This document shows, one piece after another, positions 4,017-18,848 of a stretch of DNA of 34,139 nucleotides. Under the pieces are notes generated by a model. The model was not told the origin of the DNA, did not search any database, and was given only the letters and a program-made list of their open reading frames with translations. How positions within the stretch are numbered: position 1 is the first letter of the stretch; each line of letters starts with the position of its first letter. This stretch comes from Catenulispora sp. (lineage in GTDB: Bacteria > Actinomycetota > Actinomycetes > Streptomycetales > Catenulisporaceae), in contig JABFWL010000063.1 of the NCBI GenBank assembly GCA_013362315.1, forward strand, positions 1 to 34,139, read 5' to 3'. The translations under genes were made by a program, and so were the position numbers.

Positions 4017-4128
4017 GTCGATCGCGGAGCGGGATGCCGCAGCGCAGGCCGGTTCGGCCGCCCGGCCGGCTCTGTCGTTTCCGGATGCACGCCTGTCTAT
4101 GAGCCAAAGGCTAGCGGGATGAGGGCCC

Positions 4129-5844
4129 TTATATCGAGGTGCAGGGCCTGCCGTTGAGCGTGAAGGCGCTCGGTGGCGTGAAGGGAAGAGCTGAGCCGGT
4201 GAATCCGGGAGACGTCTGGCCACCGGCTCCGATCACGGTGTTCCACGGTTGCGGGGAGATCGTGCCGATCGTGCCGTTCCGTGTCAGGGCGCCGTTGAAG
4301 GTGGTCGAGACGGTCGCGGTCGTCGGGAGCGTGAACTGGACCGTCCAGCCGCTGAGCGGAGCCGCGGTCGTGTTGACGATGGTCACGGTGGCGGTGAAGC
4401 CCGGGTTGTAGGCCTGCACCTGGACGCGACAGATCGGGTAGGCGGTGTCAGCCTGCGTGGTGACCGTAGCGGGGTCCGACCGGACGGAGGCGTTCCCCTT
4501 GGCATCGAAGGCAATGACGCCGAAGGTGAAGGACGTGGCCGGAGTCAGACCACTGATGGGCTGGAACCGCGCGGCAGCGGCGACCGTGCGGATCGTGGTC
4601 CAGGCTCCGGCCACGAGCTGCTGCACGTAGTACCCGGTGACCTGCACGTTGTCGGTGGACTCGCCCCAAGACAGGTTCGTCGCGGTGGTCGTGGTGTTGC
4701 TGAACAGCGGCGTCGGCGGCTTGGACGGGGGAACGGTGTCCGGACCGGCGAGGGTGGTGAACGACACCGGTGCGGACGGGGCGCTGGCGGTGTAGCCGAG
4801 GCCTTGGACCGGGACCGAGTACACGCGGAAGGTGTAGGTGGTGGCGGGCGTGAGGTTCGTCAGGGCGAGCGAGCCGAAGGCCCCGCCGGCGTACTGCTGC
4901 CACCTGCCGTCAACCTGGCGCTCGACCACGTCGCCCGCGCTCAGGCCGCTGCCCAGCCACGTCAGATCGGCGGTCGTGTCGGCAATGTGGAGGGCTTGAA
5001 GGCCGGTGGGGGTGGGCAGCGGCGTGGGCGCTTGGGCGCTGGTGACATTGCCGTTGTCCAGTTGAGTGGCGAACAGGACGTCCGGCGCGTAGAAGGGACG
5101 ACCGCTCTGCTGCTGCAGCCAGATATATGCAGTCTGATTCGTCGTGTCGGCGTCGCTCGGCGAGGTGAGAGTCAGGACATGCGGTACGTCCCAGTCAGTC
5201 GGCGTGAACGTGAGCTGCGACGGCGCGGCCTGGATCGGCGCCGCGGAACCGGATCCGACGGTGATCACGGTGTTCGCCGTGGGTGCCTGGCTGAGTCTCA
5301 CGGCGACGGTGGACGAGCCGCCTTCGGGAACCGTGGGCTTGTCGGCGCTGACCACGATGTACGGCGACGGCGTATAGGCCGTCGCCTGTCCGTTGAAGAC
5401 GAAACTGGACGGCGGTACGTCGGTGGAAGTCGGATTGGAGAACTGGACTACCAGATGGATTGTGCTCCCGGCGGCGATGGTCCCGTTGAACGGCCGGTTG
5501 GTCAGGGTGACGTGCCGACCGGTCTGCGCCGAGCCGGCATAGGCGGCAAACGTCAGCGTCTGCTGCTCGGCCGCGTCGAACTCGAGCGTCCACTGGGTCA
5601 CCGTGACGCTCGGAGTGATCGACACGTCTGCTTGCAGGCCGTATCCCCAGTTGGTCGTCGTGGTGTAGGTGACGGTCGCCGCCGGAGTGGGTGCCGCTGG
5701 CGCGGTGGCGGCGGCAGTGGCGTCGGCGGTGGCGTTCGCGGCGCCTGGCGCCGCCGCGGCCAGACCACCGGCGCCCACCATCACCCCGATCCACCTCGCG
5801 ACCCGCCTCCATCGCGCGCCGGATCTGCGCGGTGCGAACTTCAT
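4129..5844 (-). CDS. Secreted multi-domain protein: CBM2 - beta sandwich - FN3 - FN3 - CBM2
   Basis: 571 residues starting at ATG 5844 with a GGAGGGAGA ribosome-binding site. The signal peptide has an Arg-rich N-region, a 'WIGVMVGAGGLAAAAPGAANA' core and an Ala/Thr/Pro linker. Visible domains in order are a CBM2-like module (about 57-160, with 'WGYGLQADVSI', 'WTLEFDAA' and 'SSFVFNGQ'), a Calx-beta-like sandwich (about 162-270, 'VPEGGSSTVAVRLSQAP'), two fibronectin type III domains (about 278-365 and 372-463, each with 'LTPATTYTFRV' or 'LTPATSFTFGV'), and a terminal CBM2 (about 470-571) bracketed by cysteines ('CRVQVQAYNPGFTATVTI' to 'LNGRPC'). No glycoside hydrolase or LPMO domain is present, so it is probably an adhesin or scaffold for polysaccharide rather than an enzyme. 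Confidence 0.85.
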   Translation of the reverse strand: MKFAPRRSGARWRRVARWIGVMVGAGGLAAAAPGAANATADATAAATAPAAPTPAATVTYTTTTNWGYGLQADVSITPSVTVTQWTLEFDAAEQQTLTFAAYAGSAQTGRHVTLTNRPFNGTIAAGSTIHLVVQFSNPTSTDVPPSSFVFNGQATAYTPSPYIVVSADKPTVPEGGSSTVAVRLSQAPTANTVITVGSGSAAPIQAAPSQLTFTPTDWDVPHVLTLTSPSDADTTNQTAYIWLQQQSGRPFYAPDVLFATQLDNGNVTSAQAPTPLPTPTGLQALHIADTTADLTWLGSGLSAGDVVERQVDGRWQQYAGGAFGSLALTNLTPATTYTFRVYSVPVQGLGYTASAPSAPVSFTTLAGPDTVPPSKPPTPLFSNTTTTATNLSWGESTDNVQVTGYYVQQLVAGAWTTIRTVAAAARFQPISGLTPATSFTFGVIAFDAKGNASVRSDPATVTTQADTAYPICRVQVQAYNPGFTATVTIVNTTAAPLSGWTVQFTLPTTATVSTTFNGALTRNGTIGTISPQPWNTVIGAGGQTSPGFTGSALPFTPPSAFTLNGRPCTSI

Positions 5845-6009: not shown

Positions 6010-6780
6010 CTACCCGGCCAGCGGCCGAGCCTTCTCCAGGGCGGCGATCGCCGTCTCCGCGCTGCGAAGCTCGATCTGTCTGGTCGGCTCCAGCGGCCGC
6101 ACCGCGGCGGCCACCGTGGACGTGGCCGTCTCCTGCCCGCACTGGACGAAGCGTGTCTCCACGTTGAAGCGCATCCGGTTCATATCTTCGGTCTCGGCGC
6201 GGTGGGCGGTCAGGCGCATCCGCAGCGGAAGGGGAAAGACCGGTCGGTTGAAGCGGGTGTCCAACTGCGTCAGCAGGAAGGAGAAGGCCTGATCCGACCA
6301 TGGGCGGAGGTATTCCAGCTCGCATATCGCCAGGAACATCTGACGGGCGGCCTCGATCAGCACCATGCCTTGCAGGTGCGGGCCGGACTGGTGGTCCTGA
6401 AGGAGTTCGTTGTCGTTGTGGAGGCGCAGGGAGGCCTCGAAGGTATGTGGGCCGCAGTACTCGAAGTCCGCAAGCAGTACGTTGCGAGGGTCGTGCTTGT
6501 GGACCACGCGCGCCTCGACGGGGATCGGGAGGTCGCGCGGGTCGAGGAGGAGCCGGTCGCCGAGGCCTCGGCGCTCGACGGCCTCGCCGGCGCGGGCGAC
6601 CGCGGCCTCGTCCAGCCCCTGTCCCACGTGGACCTGGACCGGCTCGGGGAGGCCGTCGTAGCCGCCGCGAGCCACGACCTCGGCGAAAGCGGCGGCGCTG
6701 AGCCCGAGGCCGGCGGTGATGAAGGAGTCGAAGCGGCTGCCGACCAGGACGATCGGCGTCGTGACGAGTGGTGGGTTCAT
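6010..6780 (-). CDS. AfsA-like hotdog-fold protein (gamma-butyrolactone-type biosynthesis family)
   Basis: 256 residues. ATG 6780 overlaps the P450 stop as ATGA and has a GAGGAA ribosome-binding site inside the P450 gene. The C-terminal two thirds match the A-factor biosynthesis hotdog family: 'VHKHDPRNVLLADFEY' is like the 'VH+...NVLLtD' opening, and 'DHQSGPHLQGMVLIEAARQM' is the hotdog active-helix signature. AfsA couples a beta-ketoacyl group to dihydroxyacetone phosphate. The N-terminal part ('FDSFITAGLGLSAAAFAEVV') is more divergent than the first hotdog of classical AfsA, and the protein is somewhat shorter than AfsA (about 300). No butyrolactone receptor (ArpA-type TetR) or reductase is adjacent. 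It ends the six-gene operon, so a role in acyl transfer onto the operon's product is as likely as autoregulator synthesis. Confidence 0.78.
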   Translation of the reverse strand: MNPPLVTTPIVLVGSRFDSFITAGLGLSAAAFAEVVARGGYDGLPEPVQVHVGQGLDEAAVARAGEAVERRGLGDRLLLDPRDLPIPVEARVVHKHDPRNVLLADFEYCGPHTFEASLRLHNDNELLQDHQSGPHLQGMVLIEAARQMFLAICELEYLRPWSDQAFSFLLTQLDTRFNRPVFPLPLRMRLTAHRAETEDMNRMRFNVETRFVQCGQETATSTVAAAVRPLEPTRQIELRSAETAIAALEKARPLAG

Positions 6781-8180
6781 GGTTCCTCGCTTCCTCTGTC
6801 TGGGGACCACGGGCAGCCGGACGCCGTCTCGGTGCTTTGCCGGGCCGGCGAATCCGTGCCGAGCCAGCCCTCGCCGTCCCAGCGCACCGGCAGTGCGAGC
6901 GGTCCGCGGATGAACTGGCCCGTGGTCCACTGGACGTGGTCTTCGGGAACGGCCAGCCGCAGAATTGCGAACTCCGCCAGGAGGGCGGTCATCCCAACCT
7001 CCAGCTGCAACCGGGCCATAGGTGCGCCGAGGCAGTAGTGGCGGCCATGGCCGAAGGCGATGTGCGGGTTGTCCTCGCGGCCGGGGTCGAAGCGGTCCGG
7101 GTCGGTGAAGACCGACGCGTCCTGATTCGCGGCGGCGGCCAGCGGCACCACCACCTCCCCGGCCGGCACCAGGACGTCCCCGAGTCGGACGTCTTCCAGT
7201 GCCACATGCGGCGCGCCGCCGGTCGCGATCAGCGAGCTCCAGCGCAGGATCTCTTCCAGCGCGGGCGCCAGCGCGGCAGGCTGCTCACGGAGGCGCGCGG
7301 TCAGTGCCGGGTCGCGCAGCACCATCAGCACCGCCATCGCGAGCTGCCGCGAGGTGGTGTCGAATCCGGCCATCAGCAGCCCGGAGCCGAAGACCGCGAC
7401 CTCCTCGTGGCTGAGGCGGCCGGCTCCCCTGCCGAGGAGCAGCCTGGTGAGCAGGTCGTCGTTCGGGTGGCCCGCGGCGGCCTCGTAGAGGCGCCGGGCG
7501 ACCAGGTCTTCGAAGTATTCGTGCACCTCGGCGTGGGCCGCGGCCACCTCCTCGGAGGTGTGGCTGCCGAACGACATCATCACGGCCATGGCCGGACGCA
7601 GCTTGACCGCGTCGTCATACGGCAGGCCGAGCTGTTCGGTCGCGGTGCGCAGGGCGAACGGGACGGTGAACTCCTCGACCAGGTCCGCGGGCTGCGGGAG
7701 GGTGCGCAGCCGGCTGGCACTGGAAGCGGCGAGGTCTCGCAGCCACGGCGCCGTCTCGCGGGCTTGCCGCGCCGTGAACTCAGCGGCCACGGCCTGCCGC
7801 CGGCGGCTGTGCACCGGCGGGTCGCTCGTGGCCAGCGCCAGCGAGGAGCTGGAGCGCGCGAACATCGGCTTGCCGGTGAACGATGCCCGGCTGAAGCGAT
7901 CGTCGGACAGCACGGCGCGTACCTCGGCGTAGCGGCTGACCAGCAAGGCCGACGCACCGTTGGACAGAACCACCCGCGGCAGTCCCGGCTCGCCGGTCAT
8001 CTCGGCGAACCGCGCAGGCGGCCGTGGGCTGGGCGGGTGAGGGAACGGGAAGGCCGGCGGCTCGTCGGGCAGGCCGAGGACTTCGGGCACGTCAGTCTCG
8101 CGGGTTTCGTCAGGCTCGGTGGTGTGGGCGGGCTTGGCGGGCTCGTCGAGCTCGGTGCTCTTGTCGGGCTCGGCGGTCAT
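6777..8180 (-). CDS. Cytochrome P450
   Basis: 467 residues from ATG 8180, which overlaps the stop of the UbiA gene (ATGA). Key P450 elements are intact: the I-helix oxygen-binding motif 'AGFDTTSRQ', the K-helix ExxR in 'EEILRWSS', and the heme loop 'FGHGRHYCLGAPMAR' with the proximal thiolate at Cys383. It resembles bacterial CYP105/107-type soluble P450s. The first about 45 residues are an acidic, low-complexity leader ('TELDEPAKPAHTTEPDETRE') not needed for the fold. The expected reaction is hydroxylation or another oxidation, with electrons from ferredoxin and ferredoxin reductase encoded elsewhere; neither is in the window. In context the substrate is probably a prenylated or terpenoid intermediate made by the adjacent genes. 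Confidence 0.93.
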   Translation of the reverse strand: MTAEPDKSTELDEPAKPAHTTEPDETRETDVPEVLGLPDEPPAFPFPHPPSPRPPARFAEMTGEPGLPRVVLSNGASALLVSRYAEVRAVLSDDRFSRASFTGKPMFARSSSSLALATSDPPVHSRRRQAVAAEFTARQARETAPWLRDLAASSASRLRTLPQPADLVEEFTVPFALRTATEQLGLPYDDAVKLRPAMAVMMSFGSHTSEEVAAAHAEVHEYFEDLVARRLYEAAAGHPNDDLLTRLLLGRGAGRLSHEEVAVFGSGLLMAGFDTTSRQLAMAVLMVLRDPALTARLREQPAALAPALEEILRWSSLIATGGAPHVALEDVRLGDVLVPAGEVVVPLAAAANQDASVFTDPDRFDPGREDNPHIAFGHGRHYCLGAPMARLQLEVGMTALLAEFAILRLAVPEDHVQWTTGQFIRGPLALPVRWDGEGWLGTDSPARQSTETASGCPWSPDRGSEEP

Positions 8181-9100
8181 GGTGTGTGCCCTTCCAGAAG
8201 ATCGACGACGAGGAACGCGGTGAACGCCGCGAGGACGTAGAACCCTGAATCCGCCGGCGGCCAGCGCTCGGCGCCGCCGCGCCAGAACCGCAGCGCGCCC
8301 CGCACCGGCAGCGCGGCCGGCAGCAGGACGAGCCACCCCGCCTCGGCGCCGGGGCTCCAGGGCCGGGTCAGCAGCAGCGCAAGAATCGTCGCCACGGCGG
8401 CGGCAGCAAGTGCGGCCCTAGCCGTCCCCTCGACACCGAACACGGCCACATAGGTGCGCTCCCCCGGCTCGGGCACGCGGGTGGTCTTGCGCGCGAGTTC
8501 GAGGTGCGTGAAGACGGCCAGCATGGAGGCCAGCGGCAGGAGCGCAGCGGGCCCGGCGGGCCAGTGGGTGTCGTGCAACAGGGTCGCGTAGAGGTAGCCG
8601 CCGAGCAGCAGCTGCACCGGCAGGCTGATCAGGGCACTGACGATGAGCGCGTCCCCGGACGGCCAGTGCACTAGCCGGTCAGCGGCCAGCAACACCGCCA
8701 GATAGAGCAGCGCCGTGGCCGCACCGGCCAAGGCCAGGCCGCGCGGAGCGTTGAGCAGCAGGACGACGACGGTCCCGGCACCGATGATCACGCCGATGTC
8801 GCGGACGGCGACCGCGCCGGAGGCCAGCGGCCGCCGTGGGTTGTGCTCGCGGTCGTAGTCCAGGTCGCGCAGGTCGTCGACGGCGCGGACCACCAGAAGC
8901 AGCACCGTGAACGACGCGAGAGTGGCCAGCGTGGCCCAGCCCGGCCGCCACGCGCTCGCGCCGGGGCCACGCTGGCCGTGCCGGGCGCGCTGTCCGAGGG
9001 CGAACATGGCCGTCCCGCCGAGCGCCCAGGCCAGTGCGTAGGGCAGGTAGACCGCCGGAGGGAAGCTGCCCCGGACATAGCGGCGCAGCCGCACGATCAC
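8177..9100 (-). CDS. UbiA-family membrane prenyltransferase or terpene cyclase
   Basis: 307 residues, GTG start overlapping the previous stop as GTGA. Eight to nine hydrophobic helices are visible. The first aspartate-rich motif is clear ('VRAVDDLRDLDYDREHNPRRPL', about residues 71-92; DDxxDxDxD type) and would bind the Mg-diphosphate of a prenyl donor. At the place of the second motif there is 'HLELARKTTRVPEPGERTY' (about 198-216), which lacks the DxxD expected in classical UbiA, MenA or COQ2 enzymes. UbiA proteins either transfer a prenyl chain to an acceptor or, in some actinomycetes, cyclise it. The divergent second motif leaves both possible. The prenyl donor is likely supplied by the synthase at 13411-14436. 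Confidence 0.86.
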   Translation of the reverse strand: MIVRLRRYVRGSFPPAVYLPYALAWALGGTAMFALGQRARHGQRGPGASAWRPGWATLATLASFTVLLLVVRAVDDLRDLDYDREHNPRRPLASGAVAVRDIGVIIGAGTVVVLLLNAPRGLALAGAATALLYLAVLLAADRLVHWPSGDALIVSALISLPVQLLLGGYLYATLLHDTHWPAGPAALLPLASMLAVFTHLELARKTTRVPEPGERTYVAVFGVEGTARAALAAAAVATILALLLTRPWSPGAEAGWLVLLPAALPVRGALRFWRGGAERWPPADSGFYVLAAFTAFLVVDLLEGHTP

Positions 9101-11841
9101 GGGTCCGCCTCCTCGGCCAGGATCCGCACGGTGCCGGCTGCGCCGTCGAGCTCGATCAGGGCGCCGTCCGGGATCCGGGTGGTGGCGTCCGCGACCGCGA
9201 CCACGGTCGGCACCCCGAGGAGCCGGCCGGTGACGGCGGTGTGCGACAGCAGCGTCCCGCGCTCGACCACCAGCCCGCGGGCCGCGGTCATCAGGAACAG
9301 CCAGCCGGGGTCGGTCTCCCGCGCTATCAGGATGGCGTCGCGGCAGGTGTCGGCGGGCACGTCGGGGTCCAGCACGACGCGGGCCCGCCCCCGGACCACG
9401 CCGGCGCTGGAGGCCAGGCCGCGCAGCACGTTCTCGCCGTCGGCGGCATCAGTGGCGTCGGCGGCGTCGCCATCACCGGAAGCGGCGGTCGCCGGGCGGG
9501 CCACGTCCAGCGGCCGCCCCGCGAGGCTCACCAGTCGCGGCGACGGCGCCGGCAGCGTCTCCCAGCGCTCCCGGTCGGCGCGGCGCAGGGCAGCGAGCGC
9601 ACGCAGATCGCTGCCGGGCAGGGTCCCGTCGAACGCGCCGAGTACCTCCTGCACGGTCAGGTCGAGGACGTCGCGCGGGTCGTCGAGCCGCCCGGCGCCA
9701 GCCAGCAGGACGCCCAGGCGCAGCAGGACGCGCCGCGACAGGCCGAACAGCTCGGTGCGGCAGAACCGGGTGTCCTCGCGGGCCTTGAGGTGGGCACGCA
9801 TCCGGGCGGCGAAGGCTCGGATGATCACGCGTCGCAGTGGGTTGCGACAGTGCTCGCGCAGCTCGCGTTCGCCGTCCGCGCGGACCTTCCGCTCGTCCGC
9901 GCGGCTGGCATCGGCGCCCGTGCCCTGCCGCAGATGCGGGCGCACCATGTCGAGCAGCATGCCGGGCCGCTGGCGCGGGGTGAGCTGTTCGAGCTTCAAG
10001 TCGCCGACGGCCCGGTCGCCATAGACGCGCAACTGGTGCAGGGCCGCGTCGGCGAGTTCGGGCCCGTATATACCGTCGGTGATCTCCTGCCAGACCACGG
10101 CGTCCTCCGCGTCGGTCGCGGCATGCAGAATCCGGTCCCGGGCCTCAGGCTGCGCACAGACCAGATCGGACAACTCCAGAGCACTGCGAAGTCCGGCCAG
10201 CGTGCGGTTCTCCGGTCCGCCCGCCAGCAGTGCGCCGAACAGTGCCCGGTGCCGGGTGCCGGTCCAGCGGCGCAGCAAGCCTTCGTAGACCGCAGCGGGG
10301 AAGATGCCCAGGACCGTGTTGGTCAGTGTGACGCCCCACTGCGCGCCGACGTCCGCCCATAGGCCGCGGTAGAACGCGACCAGGGCCTGCGCGTCGAGGG
10401 ATTCCAGATCACCGGCTTCGGCGGCGGTTCTGTCCCACCACGCGAGGAAGCCGCGCACCCGGCGGAAGTGCCCTGCGCTGCGGAACAGGGTGGCCGGGGC
10501 TGTGCGCAGGGCTCGGCCGCGCCAGCGGGGTGACAGGTCCATCCCCGGCTGGGTCCGCAGGCCCATCGAGTGCTCCCACCAGCCCCGGATGAATTCGAAC
10601 TCTGGCATCAGGCCGTGCAGCGCGTACCAGGCGTCGAGCCGGTAGTACACGCGGCCCTCGCGCAGGCCGACCATGCGCTCCAGATGATGCGCGTTCTGCC
10701 GCAGCCGCGCCTCGGGGATGCCCATGCGGCGGTAGAGATCGGTGAAGGCGGTCTTGTAGAAGTCGCGCGCGAGCGAGTACGTCAGCGCACAAGAGACTCC
10801 GGGATAGCTTTCGGTGATGTTGTGGTTGGTCCATACGACCTGCTCGGGAAGGTCCGCGAGCGGCCGGGACTGCACGATCCAGAGCTCGCCGTCGGCGGAG
10901 AAGGTGCCTTCGATGTCCTGCGGACAACCGAAATACTCCTCGATCCGGCGGGCCGTCTCGACGACCCGGGCCAAGGCGCCGTCATCAAGGACCGGCTGCT
11001 CGGCCAGTTCGGCGGGCACCTCACACTCGGCGGGCTCGTCCGGGCTCCCGACCATGCGGCGCTTGACCACGATCTCCTTGCGCACCGCACCGGTGGCCCG
11101 ATCGGTGAAGTAGTGGTCGACATCGGCGCGCTCCTGGACGACGCCCTCGCCGATGCCGTACGCCGCGGCCACCACCACACGGTCGGCGCCGTCGCGCGGG
11201 TCGCGGGTGAACGCGACGAACGAGCTGACGCCTAGCACCATCCGCTGAACGCCGACCGCTATGCGCACCGCACCGGGATCGGTGCCGCGTCGCAGCCGGT
11301 AGAGGACCCCTTCGGGGTTGTAGGCGGAGGCCCAGCATTCGACGATCCGCCGGAGCAGGTCGGCGCGTGGGACGTACAGGAAGCTGTCGCTGAGCCCGGC
11401 GAAGGGATCGGTCGAGCTGTCCTCGCCGAGTTGGCCCGGACCCGGCACGACGCACGCCCGGACCGCGGCGAGCCCGTCGGGGCCGATGAGGTCGTCGAAT
11501 GCAGTGTGAACGGCGTCGGTGAGTTCCTTGCCGATCTCGAGGGAAAGCACAGCGGCGCGTGCCTTCCCGCTCCAGCTCCGCACGGCCTCAGGTTCCGCAG
11601 CGGCGGGCGGCGCGTCCAGGTCTGCCAACACCGGCGCGACGGCCCGGTCGAAGGCGGCCGCCGGGACGGCGAACAGGTCGGGGACGGCGAATTCCGCGGC
11701 GCGTAGCTCAGCGAGCCGGGAGAACTTGTAGCCGGCGGCTGCCGGATCCAGCAGGGCTTCGCCGTGGAGCAGCGTGGAGGTTGTGTCAGGGTACGGACTC
11801 CGCCATATGGCAGGGCCCTGGGTGTCGATGGCCGCCGTCAC
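9097..11841 (-). CDS. PEP synthase / rifampin-phosphotransferase-like dikinase
   Basis: 914 residues, GTG start overlapping the nitroreductase stop (GTGA). The N-terminal ATP-grasp domain of the PPDK/PEP-synthase superfamily (about 30-320) shows Lys39 in 'GYKFSRLAEL', 'GEDSSTDPFAGLSDSFLY', 'SFVAFTRDP', 'YGIGEGVVQ' and the closing 'ELWIVQSRP'. A long helical middle region (about 340-780) would hold the substrate. The C-terminal swivelling phosphohistidine domain keeps 'GTLLSHTAVTGR' with catalytic His867. The layout matches rifampin phosphotransferase-type enzymes, which pass the beta-phosphate of ATP through His to an alcohol. The usual 'VRSS' arginine strand is replaced by 'VVPGPG' at 131-136. 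The substrate is unlikely to be rifamycin here; an alcohol of the cluster's own pathway is the better guess. Confidence 0.85.
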   Translation of the reverse strand: MTAAIDTQGPAIWRSPYPDTTSTLLHGEALLDPAAAGYKFSRLAELRAAEFAVPDLFAVPAAAFDRAVAPVLADLDAPPAAAEPEAVRSWSGKARAAVLSLEIGKELTDAVHTAFDDLIGPDGLAAVRACVVPGPGQLGEDSSTDPFAGLSDSFLYVPRADLLRRIVECWASAYNPEGVLYRLRRGTDPGAVRIAVGVQRMVLGVSSFVAFTRDPRDGADRVVVAAAYGIGEGVVQERADVDHYFTDRATGAVRKEIVVKRRMVGSPDEPAECEVPAELAEQPVLDDGALARVVETARRIEEYFGCPQDIEGTFSADGELWIVQSRPLADLPEQVVWTNHNITESYPGVSCALTYSLARDFYKTAFTDLYRRMGIPEARLRQNAHHLERMVGLREGRVYYRLDAWYALHGLMPEFEFIRGWWEHSMGLRTQPGMDLSPRWRGRALRTAPATLFRSAGHFRRVRGFLAWWDRTAAEAGDLESLDAQALVAFYRGLWADVGAQWGVTLTNTVLGIFPAAVYEGLLRRWTGTRHRALFGALLAGGPENRTLAGLRSALELSDLVCAQPEARDRILHAATDAEDAVVWQEITDGIYGPELADAALHQLRVYGDRAVGDLKLEQLTPRQRPGMLLDMVRPHLRQGTGADASRADERKVRADGERELREHCRNPLRRVIIRAFAARMRAHLKAREDTRFCRTELFGLSRRVLLRLGVLLAGAGRLDDPRDVLDLTVQEVLGAFDGTLPGSDLRALAALRRADRERWETLPAPSPRLVSLAGRPLDVARPATAASGDGDAADATDAADGENVLRGLASSAGVVRGRARVVLDPDVPADTCRDAILIARETDPGWLFLMTAARGLVVERGTLLSHTAVTGRLLGVPTVVAVADATTRIPDGALIELDGAAGTVRILAEEADP

Positions 11842-12506
11842 CGGCTCGGCTCCTCGGCTGCCCCGGCGTTCTCAGGGTACTGCCAGCCGTCCACGTGCAG
11901 AACCTCCTCCAGCGGGCGCCGCCGACCGGGCCCGAAGGCCGTCCGGAGTGTGTAGGCGGTCGGGATGAGCGGTCCCTGGTGGACGTGCTCGGGCAGGTCC
12001 AGCAGGTCGGCCAGCTCGGCCTCCAAGCCGAGGTGGACCGTGGTGAGCGTGGTCCCCAGCCCGCGGCTGCGCGCGGCGAGCGCGTAGTTCCATACGGCCG
12101 GGAGCAGCGAGGTCCAGACACCGGCCTGATTGCCGGCCGGGAGCGGCTTCGCGGTCTGGAGACAAGCCAGGACCAGTACCGGGACGCGGTGCAGGCGGTC
12201 GGCCAGCTCACCGGCGTCGCGCAGGAGGCGGTTGTCCGCGGGCGGATCGCCGAACCTTGCGTGGAAGGCCTTCCGGTAGATCTCGGCGACCTGCTCGCGG
12301 CGCTTCGGATCGCTGATGAGGATCCAGCGCCAGTCCTGCCGGTTGGCGCCGTTCGGCGCCTGAAGCGCCAGGCGGAGGCAGTCCTCGACGACGGCTCTCG
12401 GGACGGGGCGTTCCAGGTCCAGTGCTCGGCGTACCGAGCGTGTGGTGCTCAGAAGCGTGTCGCAGGCGTCCGCGTCCAGCCCGGGGCCTCCGGTCGGGCG
12501 GCTCAC
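11838..12506 (-). CDS. Nitroreductase-family flavoprotein
   Basis: 222 residues from GTG 12506, which overlaps the ICMT-like stop as GTGA; an open frame continues further upstream but only as a shadow of that gene. The N-terminal FMN-binding signature is clear ('TRSVRRALDLERPVPRAVVE' then 'APNGANRQDWRWILI'). The later 'GLGTTLTTVHL' segment is the conserved second FMN/NAD(P)H loop. The family are FMN-dependent NAD(P)H oxidoreductases, usually dimers. They reduce nitro groups, quinones or enones, and some members act as dehydrogenases in natural-product pathways. Its place inside a fully overlapped operon argues for a dedicated tailoring step. Confidence 0.88.
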   Translation of the reverse strand: MSRPTGGPGLDADACDTLLSTTRSVRRALDLERPVPRAVVEDCLRLALQAPNGANRQDWRWILISDPKRREQVAEIYRKAFHARFGDPPADNRLLRDAGELADRLHRVPVLVLACLQTAKPLPAGNQAGVWTSLLPAVWNYALAARSRGLGTTLTTVHLGLEAELADLLDLPEHVHQGPLIPTAYTLRTAFGPGRRRPLEEVLHVDGWQYPENAGAAEEPSR

Positions 12507-13168
12507 CAGACCCCCGGCAGCAGGCGGGCGTGCTGCGCCGCGTAGGCGCTGTAGGCGGGAAGGACCAGCAGGGTGCGTTCTTCGACCCGGATCCGCCAGG
12601 ACAGGACGCCGGCCAGCCCGGCCAGCAGTATCAGCGCCGGCCAGTTGAAGAAGAACACGATCAGCCCGATGTGCCCGAGGAGCATGCCGGCGTAGGCCGG
12701 GTGCCGGATCAGCCGGTAGGGGCCGGTGGAGACGATCTCGTGTCCGTCGTGGCGGATCACGTGGTGGGAGTAGAAGCGTCCCAGGGTCCTGATAGCCACC
12801 AGGCGCAGGGTGACGCCCGCCGCGAACACCGCGATCGCGGCGGCTTCGCGGACCGGCGTCTCGGCGCCGAGCGGCACGGGGAACAGGGCCGCGGCGACCG
12901 TGGCGAACCGGGTGAGGCCGTAGGCGATCAGCGTGGACACCTCGCGCGGCGGCGTGCCGGGCTTGCCCAGACTGACCGGGGCCTCGGCCAGCAGCCACAG
13001 CAGATTGGCGCCGATGAACACCAGCGCGAAGGCCCGGCCGGGCTCTCCGGGGCGGTCCAGGATGATCGCGAATCCGGCGAGATTCACCACCACGCCGATC
13101 CCGAAGAGCGTGGGCGTGATCGCTTGCCGCCAGTCGAACCGCAGGTCCACGTCGGCCACCGGCGTCAC
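12503..13168 (-). CDS. Isoprenylcysteine carboxyl methyltransferase-like membrane methyltransferase
   Basis: 221 residues, GTG start with a GGGGGAG ribosome-binding site immediately upstream; first gene of the six-gene operon. It has about five membrane helices and the ICMT/PEMT C-terminal signature 'GPYRLIRHPAYAGMLLGHIG' followed by 'IRVEERTLLVLPAYSAYA' (RHPxY...EExxL), which binds S-adenosylmethionine at the membrane face. Eukaryotic ICMT methylates the carboxylate of prenylated cysteine. Bacterial relatives are largely uncharacterised. Co-occurrence with a prenyl synthase and a UbiA enzyme suggests methyl-ester formation on a membrane-embedded isoprenoid. The family is firm; the substrate is inference. 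Confidence 0.85.
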   Translation of the reverse strand: MTPVADVDLRFDWRQAITPTLFGIGVVVNLAGFAIILDRPGEPGRAFALVFIGANLLWLLAEAPVSLGKPGTPPREVSTLIAYGLTRFATVAAALFPVPLGAETPVREAAAIAVFAAGVTLRLVAIRTLGRFYSHHVIRHDGHEIVSTGPYRLIRHPAYAGMLLGHIGLIVFFFNWPALILLAGLAGVLSWRIRVEERTLLVLPAYSAYAAQHARLLPGVW

Positions 13169-13220
13169 CTCCCCCTTGTCGTGCTTGAAGCGCTCGTGGC
13201 GTCTTGCAGCGCTTGTAACG

Positions 13221-13237
13221 GCGGGCCGCTGGCCCGC
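13221..13237. promoter_or_regulatory. Perfect 7-bp inverted repeat in the leader of the isoprenoid operon
   Basis: GCGGGCC-GCT-GGCCCGC, a perfect dyad, lies 53 bases before the start of the ICMT-like gene in the 242-bp divergent region. A second, looser dyad (TGATG ... CATCA, 13237-13257) follows directly. On the minus strand, two imperfect copies of AGCGCTKCAAG lie between the dyad and the start codon. The dyad could be an operator or a leader hairpin; no cognate regulator gene is adjacent. Confidence 0.4.
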
Positions 13238-13320
13238 TGATGCAGGGAGCTTACATCAGCTCATATGAATAGGACGGCCGATTGCATTCATCTCAGTAGA
13301 CGCGCTAGCGTTCGAGCCTA

Positions 13321-13351
13321 TTGATTGACGAACTAGAGAACGCCTTATAAG
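13321..13351 (+). promoter_or_regulatory. Candidate promoter of the polyprenyl-synthase gene
   Basis: TTGATT at 13321-13326 and the overlapping TTGACG at 13325-13330 precede TATAAG at 13346-13351, with spacers of 19 and 15 bases. This is the most A/T-rich part of the divergent intergenic region. Transcription would start about 50 bases before the ATG at 13411. Spacing is not ideal for either -35, so the call is tentative. Confidence 0.4.
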
Positions 13352-13410
13352 GGTCCTGTGGTTCACCGAGGGTGGCCGGTTCCACGACGACCCGGAGGGC
13401 GGAGGGGTAC

Positions 13411-14436
13411 ATGACGGGGGATGCAGCCACTTGGAGTTCGGCCGGCGTGCTACGGCGGTTACAGGAGCTGGGAGCGGAACTGACCGCTTCGACCGGCCCC
13501 GGCAGCGTGGCCGACCACGCGATGGGGGAAGCGCTGACCGGCTTCCTGGACCGGATCGTCGGACGCGGCTCGGGGCCGGCGGTGGACGGCATCGTGAGGC
13601 TGCCGTTCCTGGTGCACGGGATGTACTCCGGCGAGCCGGCGGCCGCCGAGCCGGCCGCCATGGCGCACGTGCTGTGGTGGGTGTCGGCACGCTACCTGGA
13701 CGACCTGTCCGATGCCGGACCGGCGGCCTTCACCGCCTCCGACACCCACACCGACGCCGACCGGGGCATGCTCGCGGCGGTCGGGATCGCCTGCCACCTG
13801 TCCGCCGCCGTTCTGGACCAGGCGTGCCGCGACGATCCAGCACGAGCCCTGATGCTGCGTCAGGAGCTGTCGCGGTGCTGGCACCGGGCGATATCGGGAC
13901 AGCTGATCGACCTCACCACGCCCGCGGTGACGGCCACCGCCGAGGCGGTCCTGGCCGGCTACCGCGGCAAGACCGGCGCACCCTACGCCATGGCCGCGGC
14001 GATGGGGGCGGCGCTGGCCGGCTGCGATCCGGCGCAGGTGGACCTGCTGCGCGACTTCGGGGAGCGGTTCGGAGTCCTGCGGCAGGTGGTCAACGACCAG
14101 CGGGACATCGCATCGCGTCGGTACGAGGACCTGCGCAACGGTACTGCCACGTACATGGTGGTGCGGTATCTGGAATCGCTGTCCGGGCGGGAGCGCGGGG
14201 TGGCGGAGAAGCTGTTTGTGGGGTGCGCGGACTCAGCTGTGGCCCGCGACGAGTTCGCGGCCCGGCTCACGGAGCCGGCGTGGCTGCGGGCGTTCGCGGG
14301 GATCGTCAAGCCCCTCATTGACGGGCTCCACGCGACGGTCGACGGGGTCGGCGGGATGGCTGAGTACGCGGCCGGGCTGCATGGGTTGATCGAGGAAACG
14401 GTGAATCTGTATCCGGAGTTCTTGATGGGCCGGTAG
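13411..14436 (+). CDS. Polyprenyl-synthetase-fold (class 1 isoprenoid) enzyme
   Basis: 341 residues; ATG 13411 has a GGAGGGG ribosome-binding site 5 bases away. All-helical class I isoprenoid fold. The first aspartate-rich motif is 'YLDDLSD' (D97-D101, DDxxD). The chain-binding lysine segment is 'GKTGAPYAMAAAMGAALAG' (about 187-204). In place of the classical second motif (DDxxD) there is 'VVNDQRDIASRRYEDL' (ND at 228-229, D232, ED at 239-240), then 'RNGTATYMVVRYL'. That NDxxD pattern recalls ComQ-like and terpene-synthase-like enzymes more than housekeeping GGPP synthases. It should make or modify a prenyl diphosphate for the divergent UbiA operon. Chain length cannot be read from the sequence. 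Confidence 0.85.
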   Translation: MTGDAATWSSAGVLRRLQELGAELTASTGPGSVADHAMGEALTGFLDRIVGRGSGPAVDGIVRLPFLVHGMYSGEPAAAEPAAMAHVLWWVSARYLDDLSDAGPAAFTASDTHTDADRGMLAAVGIACHLSAAVLDQACRDDPARALMLRQELSRCWHRAISGQLIDLTTPAVTATAEAVLAGYRGKTGAPYAMAAAMGAALAGCDPAQVDLLRDFGERFGVLRQVVNDQRDIASRRYEDLRNGTATYMVVRYLESLSGRERGVAEKLFVGCADSAVARDEFAARLTEPAWLRAFAGIVKPLIDGLHATVDGVGGMAEYAAGLHGLIEETVNLYPEFLMGR

Positions 14437-14550: not shown

Positions 14551-14937
14551 ATGAGCGCCAGCGCGCGGCTGCTGATCTGTGCCCAGGCCTGGCACTGGAT
14601 CGAGCCGGAGATCGCCTGGACCAAGGCGCGGGAGATCGTCGAGCCGGGCGGCACTCTGGCCCTGTGGTGGAACCCGGTGGAGCCGGTGAAAGCCTTCCAA
14701 CGAGACACCGCGGTGCTGCGCGACCATCGCGGGCACGGTCTGGGACGGGCGATGAAGGCCGCGATGATGCGCGGACTGGTCGCCGACCGGCCGGACGTGG
14801 CCTCGGTGGCGACCCAGACCGGCGACGTCGTGAACATGGCCCGCATCAACAACGAGCTCGGTTACCGCACTCTCGCCGAGTACTACGTGCTCGATGCCGA
14901 GGTCGCGGAACTGGAGAAGTACGTCGGCCGGAGCTGA
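14551..14937 (+). CDS. Chimeric ORF: methyltransferase fragment fused to GNAT C-terminus (probable remnant)
   Basis: 128 residues from an ATG with a good GAGAGGAG ribosome-binding site. Residues 6-42 ('LLICAQAWHWIEPEIAW...EPGGTLALWWN') are the post-motif-II part of a class I SAM methyltransferase, lacking the N-terminal GxGxG SAM loop. Residues 55-128 ('VLRDHRGHGLGRAMKAAMM' ... 'VVNMARINNELGYRTLAEYY') are the acetyl-CoA-binding half of a GNAT acetyltransferase, including RGxGLG, and lack the N-terminal half. Neither domain is complete, so neither activity is likely. The simplest reading is two decayed or recombined genes joined in frame. It stops 9 bases before the convergent MFS gene. Confidence 0.6.
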   Translation: MSASARLLICAQAWHWIEPEIAWTKAREIVEPGGTLALWWNPVEPVKAFQRDTAVLRDHRGHGLGRAMKAAMMRGLVADRPDVASVATQTGDVVNMARINNELGYRTLAEYYVLDAEVAELEKYVGRS

Positions 14938-14946
14938 CGGTCGGGC

Positions 14947-16209
14947 TCAGGTAAGGGAGTCCGCCAACGCTTCCGCCGGTTCGGGAGCCCCCGGCGACCC
15001 GGTCCGGCGGAGGCCGAGGGTGACGAGTACCGATGCGGCGGTCAGCGCGACTCCGAACCACATGGCGCTCGTCACCCCGGCGTGGTCGGCGAACAGTCCG
15101 CCGAACAGCGCTCCGAGGGCGATCGAGGTGTTGTATCCCAGAGTGTTGATCGACATCGCCGCTTCGAAGGTCTCCGGGGCGGCGCCGAGCGTCATGTTGA
15201 TCTGGCACAGGTTCACCGCGCCGAAGGACACGCCCCACAGCACCAGGGCGACGACCGCGCCGACCCGGGAGTGTCCGACCGCGAGCAGGGTCAGTAGCGA
15301 GACCAGTAGCCCGGCGCGCGCTGCCAGGTAGCTGCCCCGCAGGTTTCTCGCCACGGCGTAGCCGGCGATGAAGTTCCCCGCCGCGCCGCCGAGGCCGTAG
15401 ACCATCAGCAGTCCGGTGATGAAGGCCGGCGAGGCGCCGGAGTGCTGTTCGACGAAGGGCCGGACGAAGGTGTAGGCGCCGAAGTGGCCCAGGACGAACA
15501 AAACGACCGTGATCATCACCAGCCGCAGCTGTGCGTTCCGCACCGGGAGCCCGAACACCTGCCGGACCGGGACGGCGTTGTCCGACGGCAGCGATGGCAC
15601 GATCGTGGCGACGAGCAGGAACACCGCCGCGCTCAGGACACTCCAGATCAGGAACGTGGTCCGCCAGCTGGTGAGGTTGGCGAGGAAGGTGCCCAGAGGT
15701 ATGCCCACCACGGTCGCGATCGAGATGCCGGACAGCGCGACCGCGGCGGCCCGGTTGGCGTGCCGCCCGGGTACCAGCCGCATCGCCATGCTCACGCCGA
15801 TCGCCCAGAACACGCCGTTGGCGAAGCCCATGGCCAGCCGTGTCGTCAGGACCACGGCGAAGTCCGGCGCGACGCCGGTCACGAAGTTGCCCAGGGCGAG
15901 GACCGCCAGCAGCGCGGACAGCAGCACGCGGCGGTTGACGCGCCGGGTCCAGGCCACGATGAACGGCACTCCGAGTCCGGCGGAGATGCCGTACAGCGTG
16001 ACCATCAGCCCTGCGACGCCGACCGAGATCCGCAGGCTGGCGCTGACGGGAGTCAACAGGCCGACGGGCATGAGTTCGGTGGTGACGAAGGTGAACAGGC
16101 TCGCGGTGATCGCCGCGACCCCGAGCCAGGACCGCACCGGCGAGTGTGGATGTTCGTCTTGAGTGGACATAGCTATCGGACCATCGGTTCTCGGGTGCGT
16201 AGTGCTCAT
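14947..16209 (-). CDS. MFS transporter, 12-TM DHA1-type efflux protein
   Basis: 420 residues with 12 predicted membrane helices. It has DHA1 drug-efflux features: 'FTFVTTELMPVGLLTPV' in the first helix (the AraJ/YdhP-type 'TEf.pvGLLp' motif), 'RRVNRRVLL' between helices 2 and 3, and 'TRLAMGFANGVFWAIG' in helix 4. ATG 16209 is the longest start; an in-frame ATG at 16170 is an alternative, and neither has a strong ribosome-binding site. It is divergent from the MocR regulator at 16256 with only 46 bases between, so regulation by that protein is likely. The substrate is unknown; arabinose, nucleoside or drug export are all seen in relatives. Confidence 0.88.
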   Translation of the reverse strand: MSTTHPRTDGPIAMSTQDEHPHSPVRSWLGVAAITASLFTFVTTELMPVGLLTPVSASLRISVGVAGLMVTLYGISAGLGVPFIVAWTRRVNRRVLLSALLAVLALGNFVTGVAPDFAVVLTTRLAMGFANGVFWAIGVSMAMRLVPGRHANRAAAVALSGISIATVVGIPLGTFLANLTSWRTTFLIWSVLSAAVFLLVATIVPSLPSDNAVPVRQVFGLPVRNAQLRLVMITVVLFVLGHFGAYTFVRPFVEQHSGASPAFITGLLMVYGLGGAAGNFIAGYAVARNLRGSYLAARAGLLVSLLTLLAVGHSRVGAVVALVLWGVSFGAVNLCQINMTLGAAPETFEAAMSINTLGYNTSIALGALFGGLFADHAGVTSAMWFGVALTAASVLVTLGLRRTGSPGAPEPAEALADSLT

Positions 16210-16255
16210 GTGATCACGCTAGAGGCGATCTGGTGCTGTCGTAGGATCCAGAGCT

Positions 16256-17647
16256 GTGACAGATCCGGGTACCAGATCCTCGGCTGCGGAGCTCCTGATC
16301 CGCCTGGACCGGGACGTGGCGACCCCGCTTCGCGTGCAGCTCGAACAGGCGCTGCGGGATCAGATCCGGGCCGGCGTGCTGGCCGCGGACGCCCCGATGC
16401 CGTCCAGCCGCGTGCTCGCCGCCGACCTCGGCGTGTCCCGCCGCCTGGTCGTCGAGGCCTACGAACAGCTCGTCGCCGAGGGCTACCTGACCAGCGCCGA
16501 GCGCTCCGCCACCCGCGTCGGCTCCGTCGCCCCGACCGCCGGGACGGCCGTCGGCGACGAACCCTGGATCCCCCGCTACGACTTGCGTCCCGGCCTTCCG
16601 GCCCTTTCGGAGTTCCCCCGCGCGGCCTGGCTGCGCGCGCTCAGCCACGCCCTGCGTCAGGCTCCTGACTCGGCCTTCGCCCGGCCCGAGCCGCGCGGCT
16701 CGGCAGTGCTGCGCCACGCGGTCGCCGACTACCTGCGCCGAACCCGTGCCGTCGTGGCGCATCCCGACCGCATCGTCATCTGCAACGGCTTCACCCAGGC
16801 CCTGTCGCTGCTGACGCACGCCCTTCCCGGGCCCGGCGGACGCCCCGTGATCGCGCTGGAGAACCCCGGCACCCCCGGCCGCGACCGCACGATCACGCTG
16901 GCCGGCGGTAACTGGATGCCGGTCCCGGTCGACAGCGAGGGCATCCGCACCGACCAGATCCCCGGCGATGCGCACGCGGCGGTCGTCACCCCGGCCCACC
17001 AGTTCCCGCTCGGCGCCGTCCTGTCGCCGCACCGCCGGGCCGCCCTCCGCGACTGGGCCCGCGACGGCCGCCTGGTCGTCGAAGACGACTACGACGCGGA
17101 GTTCCGCTACGACCGCCAGCCGCTCGGCGCCGTCCAGGGCCTCGCCCCGGAACATGTGGCCTACGTCGGCACGATGAGCAAGACCTTGTCCCCGGCCCTG
17201 CGGCTCGGCTGGCTGGTCCTGCCCTGCGCCCTGGTCGAGCCGGTCGCGCGGGCCAAGCGGGCCCAGGACGTCGGCAGCCCCGTCCTCGACCAGCTGGCCC
17301 TGGCGCATTTCATGGACAGCGGAGCCTACGAACGCCACCTGCGCCGCATCCGCAAGCACTACCACCGCAACCGCGACGAACTGGTCGCCGCGCTGCAACG
17401 GCACCTGCCCGACGCCCGGGTCACCGGCATCGCCGCGGGCATCCACCTCGTCCTGCGTCCGTCCGGCGACGTGGACGCGGACCGCCTGGTCGCCGCCGCG
17501 GCCGAGCGCGGCCTCGCCCTCACCAGCCTGACGCGCTACCTGCTCGGCGACGACCGCGACGCCGGCGGCCGCGTCGTCCTCGGCTACGGAAACATCCGAT
17601 CGGGCACGATCGAGCCGGCGGTGCGGACGCTGGCTGAGCTTGTCTAG
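16256..17647 (+). CDS. MocR/PdxR-type GntR regulator with aminotransferase domain
   Basis: 463 residues. The N-terminal GntR winged helix (about 10-85: 'PLRVQLEQALRDQIRAGVL', 'MPSSRVLAADLGVSRRLVVE', 'QLVAEGYLTS') is joined to a fold-type I aminotransferase domain (about 110-463). The PLP lysine is K309 in 'GTMSKTLSPALRLGW', and the Asp that contacts the PLP nitrogen is in 'VVEDDYDAEFRYD'. MocR proteins sense PLP or amine compounds rather than acting as free transaminases; PdxR controls vitamin B6 synthesis. The GTG start has no Shine-Dalgarno, but TAGGAT at 16242-16247 sits just 8 bases upstream, so the mRNA may be leaderless. The divergent MFS gene is the obvious target. No pdxS/pdxT genes are near. 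Confidence 0.9.
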   Translation: MTDPGTRSSAAELLIRLDRDVATPLRVQLEQALRDQIRAGVLAADAPMPSSRVLAADLGVSRRLVVEAYEQLVAEGYLTSAERSATRVGSVAPTAGTAVGDEPWIPRYDLRPGLPALSEFPRAAWLRALSHALRQAPDSAFARPEPRGSAVLRHAVADYLRRTRAVVAHPDRIVICNGFTQALSLLTHALPGPGGRPVIALENPGTPGRDRTITLAGGNWMPVPVDSEGIRTDQIPGDAHAAVVTPAHQFPLGAVLSPHRRAALRDWARDGRLVVEDDYDAEFRYDRQPLGAVQGLAPEHVAYVGTMSKTLSPALRLGWLVLPCALVEPVARAKRAQDVGSPVLDQLALAHFMDSGAYERHLRRIRKHYHRNRDELVAALQRHLPDARVTGIAAGIHLVLRPSGDVDADRLVAAAAERGLALTSLTRYLLGDDRDAGGRVVLGYGNIRSGTIEPAVRTLAELV

Positions 17648-17903: not shown

Positions 17904-18848
17904 TCACTCGCGGTGGCCGGCGAGCTCCGAGGCAAGGAAGTCGAGCGTGCGGTCGACCTCCGTGAGGCTGGGGTCGCGGTTGAGGTGACCGTGGGGCATG
18001 CCCGGGGCGAGATACCGGCGTACCGGCACGCCGACCTCTTCGAGTTGCGAGACCAGTAGTTCGCCGGAGGGCCGAAGCTCGTCGTACTCAGAAACCACGA
18101 CGACGGTGGGCGCGAGGCCGGCGAGCCCGGCCGCCCCCGGCATGGCGTCCGGAGGCAGAGCAGTCAGGCGGCCGACGTAGTTACGCACCATGCCCTCGAC
18201 ATTGGCGGCGGAGGACCGCAGGATCGGCGGAAGTCGGAGCATCTCGGCGGTTGTCTCGTCGTCGAGTGCGGGAACCGGGAAGTGGACGAAGGGATAGACC
18301 AGCAGGAGTTTTTCAGGGCCCTGCGAGCCTTGGTCGCGCAGCCGGACCGCCGTGGTGAGGCTGAGGGCGGCTCCGGCGCTGGCGCCGCCGAGGGCGACGC
18401 CGCCCGAAGGCAGCAGCCCGCGGCCCTCGCCCTGGGTGAGCCACAGCCACGCGGCGTGGACATCGTCGGCGGGCACCGGGTAACGGATCTCGGCGGTGGC
18501 GAGTCGATAACCGACGGAGACCACGAGCGCGCCGGCCCGGACGGCGAGTTCAGCGGACACCCGGTGTGCTTCGGGCATGTCGAGGTCACCGGCGGCGAAT
18601 CCGCCGCCGTGCACCCAGACCAGCGTACGGTGTACAGCGCCGCGCGGGCGGTAGACGCGGAGGCTGATGTCGCCGTGCGGGCCCGGGATCGAGAGGTCCT
18701 CCATCGCGACGTCAGGCATCCCCGGCCCTTCCGGGTCGGCGAAGAACTCCTTGAACCTCGCCATGTGCTCTGGGTTCGTATATGCGCTCTCCCACGTGAC
18801 GCCGTCCAGAAGATGCACTTTCGCGGCAAGGAATGGATCAAGCGGCAC
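17904..18848 (-). CDS. Alpha/beta hydrolase, HSL/acetyl-esterase family
   Basis: 314 residues; GTG 18848 follows a GAGGAG ribosome-binding site. It has the hormone-sensitive-lipase oxyanion motif 'VHGGGFAAGD' (H80-G83), the nucleophile elbow 'GASAG' with Ser157, a catalytic acid in 'EYDELRPSGE' and the His in 'GMPHGHLNRD'. The catalytic triad is therefore complete. The family hydrolyses short acyl esters of small molecules in the cytoplasm. It lies 69 bases downstream of the L-2-hydroxyglutarate oxidase gene on the same strand and may be co-transcribed. Nothing in the sequence fixes a substrate. Confidence 0.9.
   Translation of the reverse strand: MPLDPFLAAKVHLLDGVTWESAYTNPEHMARFKEFFADPEGPGMPDVAMEDLSIPGPHGDISLRVYRPRGAVHRTLVWVHGGGFAAGDLDMPEAHRVSAELAVRAGALVVSVGYRLATAEIRYPVPADDVHAAWLWLTQGEGRGLLPSGGVALGGASAGAALSLTTAVRLRDQGSQGPEKLLLVYPFVHFPVPALDDETTAEMLRLPPILRSSAANVEGMVRNYVGRLTALPPDAMPGAAGLAGLAPTVVVVSEYDELRPSGELLVSQLEEVGVPVRRYLAPGMPHGHLNRDPSLTEVDRTLDFLASELAGHRE

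Follow-up and report, generated by a model that had tools for sequence, protein, structure and literature searches.

The stretch analysed here in full, hereafter the window, is the 34,139-nucleotide contig JABFWL010000063.1 of Catenulispora sp. (GCA_013362315.1), one of the 770 contigs of a draft genome of 8 Mb, and it carries at positions 6010–14436 a cluster of seven genes that includes a dikinase related to rifampin phosphotransferase (RPH). A preliminary description made from the sequence alone had named the seven gene families, and open reading frame (ORF) calls together with Pfam and NCBIfam searches recover all of the genes at these coordinates and under those names. In the order of the minus strand, the cluster encodes an ICMT-like membrane O-methyltransferase (12503–13168; PF04140, 62.3 bits), a nitroreductase-family flavoprotein that is a candidate butenolide reductase (11838–12506; PF00881, 71.1 bits), the dikinase with RPH architecture (9097–11841; PF01326 and PF00391, with RPH as the nearest solved structure), a UbiA-fold integral membrane transferase (8177–9100; assigned by its predicted fold), a cytochrome P450 (6777–8180; PF00067, 112.4 bits) in which the heme cysteine motif FGHGRHYCLG can be read, and an AfsA-type hotdog protein of 256 amino acids (aa; 6010–6780; PF03756, 61.8 bits against a cut-off of 24). 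The gene for a trans-isoprenyl-diphosphate-synthase-like protein (13411–14436; PF00348, 41 bits) runs divergently on the plus strand, and the region between the two directions (13169–13410) is presumed from its position to hold the promoters of both.

With refined starts for the nitroreductase (12506), dikinase (11841), UbiA (9100), P450 (8180) and AfsA (6780) genes, each of the five starts overlaps the preceding stop by four bases, GTGA or ATGA, with ATGA at the UbiA–P450 junction. Because of these overlaps at all five junctions, the six minus-strand genes look like a single translationally coupled operon, as had been proposed. The synthase start is most likely ATG 13411 rather than GTG 13372, judging from comparison with the homologue in a locus of the same genus (L022; L numbers denote fetched loci) and from a GGAGG-like site.

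All seven genes recur in the two same-genus loci L021 and L022 at 74.5–90.1% identity (tblastn), whereas the flanks differ: the window ORFs at 1443–5844 and 14551–17647 have no family member there, and 6010–14436 is therefore taken as the unit. The plus-strand ORF 14551–14937 may be a remnant, its start resembling by eye the end of an S-adenosylmethionine methyltransferase and its end an acetyltransferase, with no Pfam match; ORF 17904–18848 fell into one family with an ORF of L021 and L022 that is much longer, a grouping that we take to be a chance join. Within the genus the cluster is accessory, a dikinase match at E <= 1e-60 being present in 3 of the 10 genomes listed, some of them incomplete drafts. 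The nearest named relative of the locus in a scan of named genomes is that of Catenulispora rubra, whose strain DSM 44948 carries all seven genes as well (L035).

Across the order, a dikinase homologue at E <= 1e-60 was found in 16 of 293 genomes, and the 14 loci fetched around 14 of these contain UbiA in every case and ICMT in eight (tblastn). A wider set of 81 loci consists of the window and 80 named-genome loci found by dikinase alignment alone, the best 80 of 465 relatives; partner genes were counted with profile hidden Markov models on six-frame ORFs of the fetched stretches. These profiles were built from the window proteins and their matches in the same loci, which makes the positives partly circular; no control locus entered their construction. 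UbiA is present in 71 of the 81 loci, an AfsA-type gene in 63, ICMT in 61, P450 in 39, nitroreductase in 16 and the synthase in 14. UbiA, ICMT and AfsA stand together beside the dikinase in 54 loci, distributed over actinomycetes (Streptomyces, Kitasatospora, Streptosporangium, Planobispora, Actinomadura, Dactylosporangium, Mycobacterium and Mycolicibacterium) and, among others, Burkholderia, Pseudomonas, the myxobacterium Corallococcus, Gammaproteobacteria, Bacteriovoracaceae and a Syntrophomonadaceae metagenome-assembled genome (MAG). As a control, we scanned the surroundings of 20 paralogous dikinases from the same order, which score 129–389 bits on the dikinase profile; these stretches, about 11 to 19.5 kb long, yielded no UbiA, no ICMT and no AfsA (0/20 each), while 20 cluster stretches scanned beside them gave UbiA in 19, AfsA in 19 and ICMT in nine. 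These longer stretches replaced an earlier, weak control of 27 paralogue loci with 1.5-kb flanks, many of which ended inside a gene. Linkage of the dikinase with UbiA, ICMT and AfsA is thus far beyond chance, and the recurrence across genera that the preliminary description had set as its check is borne out. Prenyl supply, on the other hand, is an optional module, since the synthase lies in the fetched stretch of only 14 loci as against 63 with AfsA.

Several relatives show how the set varies. Six loci of Mycobacterium, Mycolicibacter and Mycolicibacterium (L063, L064, L066, L067, L068 and L074) carry a version with P450, UbiA, ICMT, AfsA and synthase plus a SnoaL-like family, and an MMPL-family transporter lies near L063, the one such locus scanned for it. 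A minimal version on the megaplasmid of Streptomyces clavuligerus (L186:9159-15837) comprises genes for AfsA, ICMT, dikinase and UbiA with an oxidoreductase gene after them; its UbiA gene is annotated as "hypothetical protein" and was recognized by profile at 340 bits. A plasmid of Streptomyces durmitorensis (L185:4669-14991) carries a version lacking UbiA, with AfsA, ICMT, nitroreductase, dikinase, P450 and SnoaL-like genes as well as nucleotidyltransferase-like, thymidylate-kinase-like and two KAS III genes.

The dikinase consists of an ATP-grasp domain, a helical centre and a C-terminal phosphohistidine domain (PPDK_N, 175.1 bits; PEP-utilizers, 66.3 bits), and RPH is its closest solved structure by sequence and by fold, which upholds the earlier comparison with that enzyme. 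Residues K39, R128, E311, Q324, R326 and H867 are invariant in 31 sequences, and we take them to be the ATP-grasp positions and the catalytic histidine. The three-domain build with its C-terminal histidine domain is that of Listeria RPH, from which the window protein differs in being about 20% identical over the whole chain and in sitting in a biosynthetic operon. Among NCBIfam models it scores 508.9 bits on PRK06241.2, 245.6 on RPH, 219.2 on RedH and 188.6 on PigC. A dedicated role in rifampin resistance was rejected, given the biosynthetic setting of the gene and a score far below the RPH equivalog cut-off (999 bits), and so was a true phosphoenolpyruvate (PEP) synthase, because Pfam finds PPDK_N and PEP-utilizers only and no PEP-binding barrel.

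The membrane protein scores 30.7 bits on PF01040, under the gathering score of 34.2, and its UbiA fold is confirmed by an AlphaFold model (pLDDT, the model's confidence score, 95.5) whose 15 best solved matches, 4od4, 6m31, 4tq4, 8j8j and 8djk among them, all belong to the UbiA superfamily, eight at E <= 0.001. UbiA prenyltransferases are defined by two Asp-rich motifs. The first is kept (D75-D79-D83) and the expected place of the second is occupied by an invariant E201xxxK205, a region before which the sequence alignment to solved UbiA proteins stops short; R72, D75, D79, Y82, D83, R90, E201, K205 and Y217 do not vary in 54 sequences. A UbiA-type terpene cyclase as the default reading was set aside, as it leaves AfsA unexplained. 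In the synthase, DDxxD and NDxxD are present in 16 of 16 aligned rows from 15 distinct loci, the first Asp of the second motif being replaced by Asn. The ICMT-like protein falls under the cut-off of the protein-ICMT equivalog NF040696 (51.4 of 160 bits), and methylation of a protein prenyl-cysteine was rejected on that ground.

The AfsA-type protein resembles the AfsA/ScbA enzymes of A-factor type gamma-butyrolactone synthesis in its hotdog domain, which lies above the Pfam cut-off, but unlike them it misses the ScbA/BarX equivalog NF041195 (36.2 of 200 bits); to our knowledge, dikinase, UbiA and ICMT have no part in the classical A-factor route. An ExxRQ motif is conserved in all nine rows of its family f14, with one genome counted twice, and a sequence search gave no relative in the PDB at E <= 1. 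By analogy with AfsA, the protein is predicted to condense a beta-ketoacyl thioester with a C3 phosphate such as dihydroxyacetone phosphate (DHAP). In relatives of the cluster, AfsA domains occur as single genes, as a fusion with a ketosynthase (KS) or at the end of very long ORFs. A KS-AfsA fusion of 960 aa is found in a deltaproteobacterial version (L106:3249-6128), with a related ORF family in L072, L075, L076 and L079, and polyketide synthases (PKS) that are about 2,550 aa long and end in an AfsA domain lie just upstream of ICMT and dikinase in L078:602-8272 and L086:734-8290, their Pfam domain order being AMP-ligase, acyl carrier protein (ACP), KS, acyltransferase, dehydratase, ACP, thioesterase and AfsA. 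Both a thioesterase and an AfsA domain are thus present within these two PKS proteins. Profile matches place AfsA at the end of further long ORFs at L083:247-8097, L089:620-8299 and L091:744-8312, which were not scanned with Pfam. These AfsA-bearing PKS and KS proteins recall gladiofungin, whose PKS has an AfsA release domain that forms a butenolide with a C3 unit (PMC7756420), although the excerpt of that paper mentions neither a dikinase nor a UbiA protein.

Two kinds of reductase gene accompany the dikinase within 8 kb, a nitroreductase in 16 of the 81 loci and a short-chain dehydrogenase/reductase (SDR) of the SDR/NmrA type in 37, and they never co-occur (Fisher p = 2.5e-5, not corrected for phylogeny). 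Because no locus of the set holds both, it is as if the two performed the same reduction, on the same bond.

The dikinase also leads to a pathway with a published product. In the family of Micromonospora chaiyaphumensis it is matched at E <= 1e-45 in 13 of 200 genomes, and one Micromonosporaceae operon (L130/L139) opens with the dikinase gene and ends with the only AfsA gene of its genome (PF03756, E <= 0.001). By Pfam, this operon encodes a dikinase, an AMP-ligase, a weakly NTP_transf_2-like protein, a NAD_binding_4 SDR, an NDK-like protein, a UbiA protein, a luciferase-like protein and AfsA, eight genes over about 11.1 kb if counted from a dikinase start that we chose. The entry for spt in Table 1 of PMC7888443 reads butyrolactone, Salinipostin, RS20900–RS20940, 11.1 kb, with nine locus tags, eight of which can be assigned. 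From the single AfsA gene and the matching span, L130/L139 is identified as the probable spt (salinipostin) operon of Salinispora tropica CNB-440. The excerpt of PMC6681047 describes salinipostins, cyclipostins and cyclophostin as bicyclic enol phosphates with a presumed relationship to A-factor. Like spt, the window has a homologous dikinase, a UbiA-fold protein and AfsA in one operon; beyond these it carries ICMT, P450, nitroreductase and prenyl synthase. A nitroreductase 57–62% identical to that of the window is encoded in five Streptomyces loci of the spt-like kind (L030-L034). The spt operon is a butyrolactone phosphotriester pathway.

A quick maximum-likelihood tree built from 95 dikinases places the window in a 76-row clade (support 100) whose members are mostly ICMT-bearing, and within it in a 13-row set (support 99) with Catenulispora, Streptosporangium, Dactylosporangium, Kitasatospora, Actinomadura and others. 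The spt dikinase is found in a 9-row clade (support 100) with the five Streptomyces and three further Micromonosporaceae loci. Seven MAG rows lie between the two clades in a tree that is rooted at midpoint only, with long branches meeting and the deep order unsure. In two of the Micromonosporaceae loci (L131 and L132), the AfsA profile match lies beside an spt-clade dikinase and falls in ORF calls of 689 and 706 aa, whose N-terminal length may in part be false. Taking gene content and tree together, the window cluster appears to belong to a sister branch of the spt/salinipostin type that is spread over several phyla. The view that the gene set is not a described pathway therefore stands in part: the core trio of dikinase, UbiA and AfsA is common to the spt operon, and the branch that holds the window is a distinct one, made up largely of ICMT-bearing loci, for which no product was found in the literature searched. 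As to the product, put forward at first as a prenylated lipid, a terpenoid or a signalling molecule, the centre of the pathway moves from a terpenoid to an AfsA-type butyrolactone, because the trio is the core of the spt operon.

We propose, with about even confidence, that the cluster makes an AfsA-derived lipid of butenolide or butyrolactone type that is decorated at a phosphate, as a sister branch of the spt type. The AfsA-type protein would join a beta-ketoacyl thioester to a C3 phosphate such as DHAP and so form a butenolide, as its family suggests, with the thioester presumably drawn from fatty-acid synthesis because the unit holds no KS or PKS gene. The nitroreductase would then reduce the ring double bond and the P450 hydroxylate the product. 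Given its architecture and conserved residues, the dikinase could pass the beta-phosphate of ATP via His867 to an oxygen of the product, perhaps the enol oxygen, in the way that PEP synthase makes an enol phosphate. The divergent synthase, to judge from its motifs, would supply a prenyl diphosphate, and the UbiA-fold enzyme might move the prenyl group onto the phosphate or onto a nucleophilic carbon of the lactone. Finally, the ICMT-like enzyme would methylate the remaining acid oxygen, of phosphate or carboxylate. The product would be a small, membrane-seeking signal or an inhibitor of serine hydrolases. The AfsA chemistry has published precedent; we infer the phosphoester steps, the order of steps, the prenyl acceptor and the acid methylated by the ICMT-like enzyme. 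Phosphate-handling genes vary around the core, with the weakly NTP_transf_2-like and NDK-like genes in spt and L030-L034 and a pair of weakly NTP_transf_2-like and thymidylate-kinase-like genes in L037, L050, L059 and the S. durmitorensis plasmid, all four of which lack UbiA. Such variation hints that what these clusters share is an AfsA-derived lactone bearing a phosphate.

Several observations weigh against a phosphate-decorated butyrolactone of the spt kind. The window has none of the AMP-ligase, NTP_transf_2-like, NDK-like, NAD_binding_4 SDR and luciferase-like genes of spt, its AfsA protein has one recognizable PF03756 stretch where that of spt has two, and its dikinase lies outside the spt clade. 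Conversely, profile searches of the fetched spt stretches found no ICMT, nitroreductase, P450 or synthase, so that the ICMT, nitroreductase and P450 steps cannot be read across from spt. UbiA is absent from 10 of the 81 loci, four of which (L037, L050, L056 and L059) are full stretches of about 22.5 kb and the others shorter, and AfsA is absent from 18, including the full stretches L112 and L114 and several of 16–17 kb with distant dikinases. The mutual exclusion of the reductases is confounded by phylogeny, and L030-L034, outside the 81 loci, hold the nitroreductase together with another SDR.

Classical UbiA chemistry is electrophilic prenylation, and the cluster might accordingly yield a meroterpenoid with no phosphoester, whose acyl-butenolide or other acceptor the UbiA-fold enzyme would C-prenylate, with tailoring by P450 and nitroreductase, methylation of a carboxylate by the ICMT-like enzyme and a transient phosphorylation by the dikinase to activate or protect an alcohol. 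The confirmed fold, the retained first Asp-rich motif and the 14 loci with a co-located synthase speak for this possibility, which we nevertheless consider rather unlikely: 67 of the 81 loci lack the synthase in their fetched stretch although 71 have UbiA, the second Asp-rich motif is apparently replaced by ExxxK, and spt has a UbiA homologue, yet salinipostin is not known to bear a C-prenyl group.

The view of the preliminary description, a terpenoid or prenyl-lipid pathway with AfsA doing no more than attach an acyl unit and with an isoprenoid alcohol as the substrate of the dikinase, draws on the fact that a single unit combines a prenyl synthase with UbiA and ICMT-like proteins and on the six Mycobacterium-type loci with a synthase. 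Lipid pathways often have an MMPL-family transporter nearby, such as the one near L063. This view is nonetheless improbable, as AfsA is the steadier partner (63 against 14 loci) and the single relative whose product has been published is, by its table entry, a butyrolactone pathway. Slightly less probable still is that the dikinase acts as a ligase, activating a carbonyl or an acid with phosphate so that a C–C or C–O bond forms, as in the prodigiosin ligases PigC and RedH of the same superfamily: both of these models match the protein, but the PRK06241.2 and RPH models score higher and RPH is the closest solved structure.

Beyond the phosphate-decorated butyrolactone proposed for the window, a broader and distinctly more doubtful suggestion is that AfsA, ICMT, dikinase and UbiA constitute an old four-enzyme module for phosphoester butyrolactone lipids in actinomycetes, proteobacteria, myxobacteria and relatives, in which the dikinase would write an enol or alcohol phosphate on the lactone, the UbiA-fold enzyme would alkylate that phosphate, with a prenyl group where a synthase is present, and the ICMT-like enzyme would methylate it. 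Searches of the open-licence literature by family name gave no description of the window cluster in the titles and abstract openings of the matches listed, "AfsA" and "UbiA" as joint whole words gave no match there, and no characterized member or product of the ICMT-bearing branch was found in the literature searched; clusters like that of the window may already appear in figures of the spt papers. That AfsA clusters are widespread was known before, since according to the excerpt of a citing paper (PMC12114271) homologues of the butyrolactone cluster had been seen across 12 phyla.

Taken together, the dikinase offers a handle on a biosynthetic module that recurs in several phyla, and the likely link to spt allows the source of the rare phosphotriester group to be tested, both for the enzyme that adds the phosphate and for the enzyme that alkylates it. 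As minimal natural versions exist, such as that on the S. clavuligerus megaplasmid, a laboratory host could serve to reconstitute the core reaction. If the four-enzyme module were real, it would put three enzyme families to a new use and would extend the kin of salinipostin and the cyclophostin-like inhibitors across phyla.

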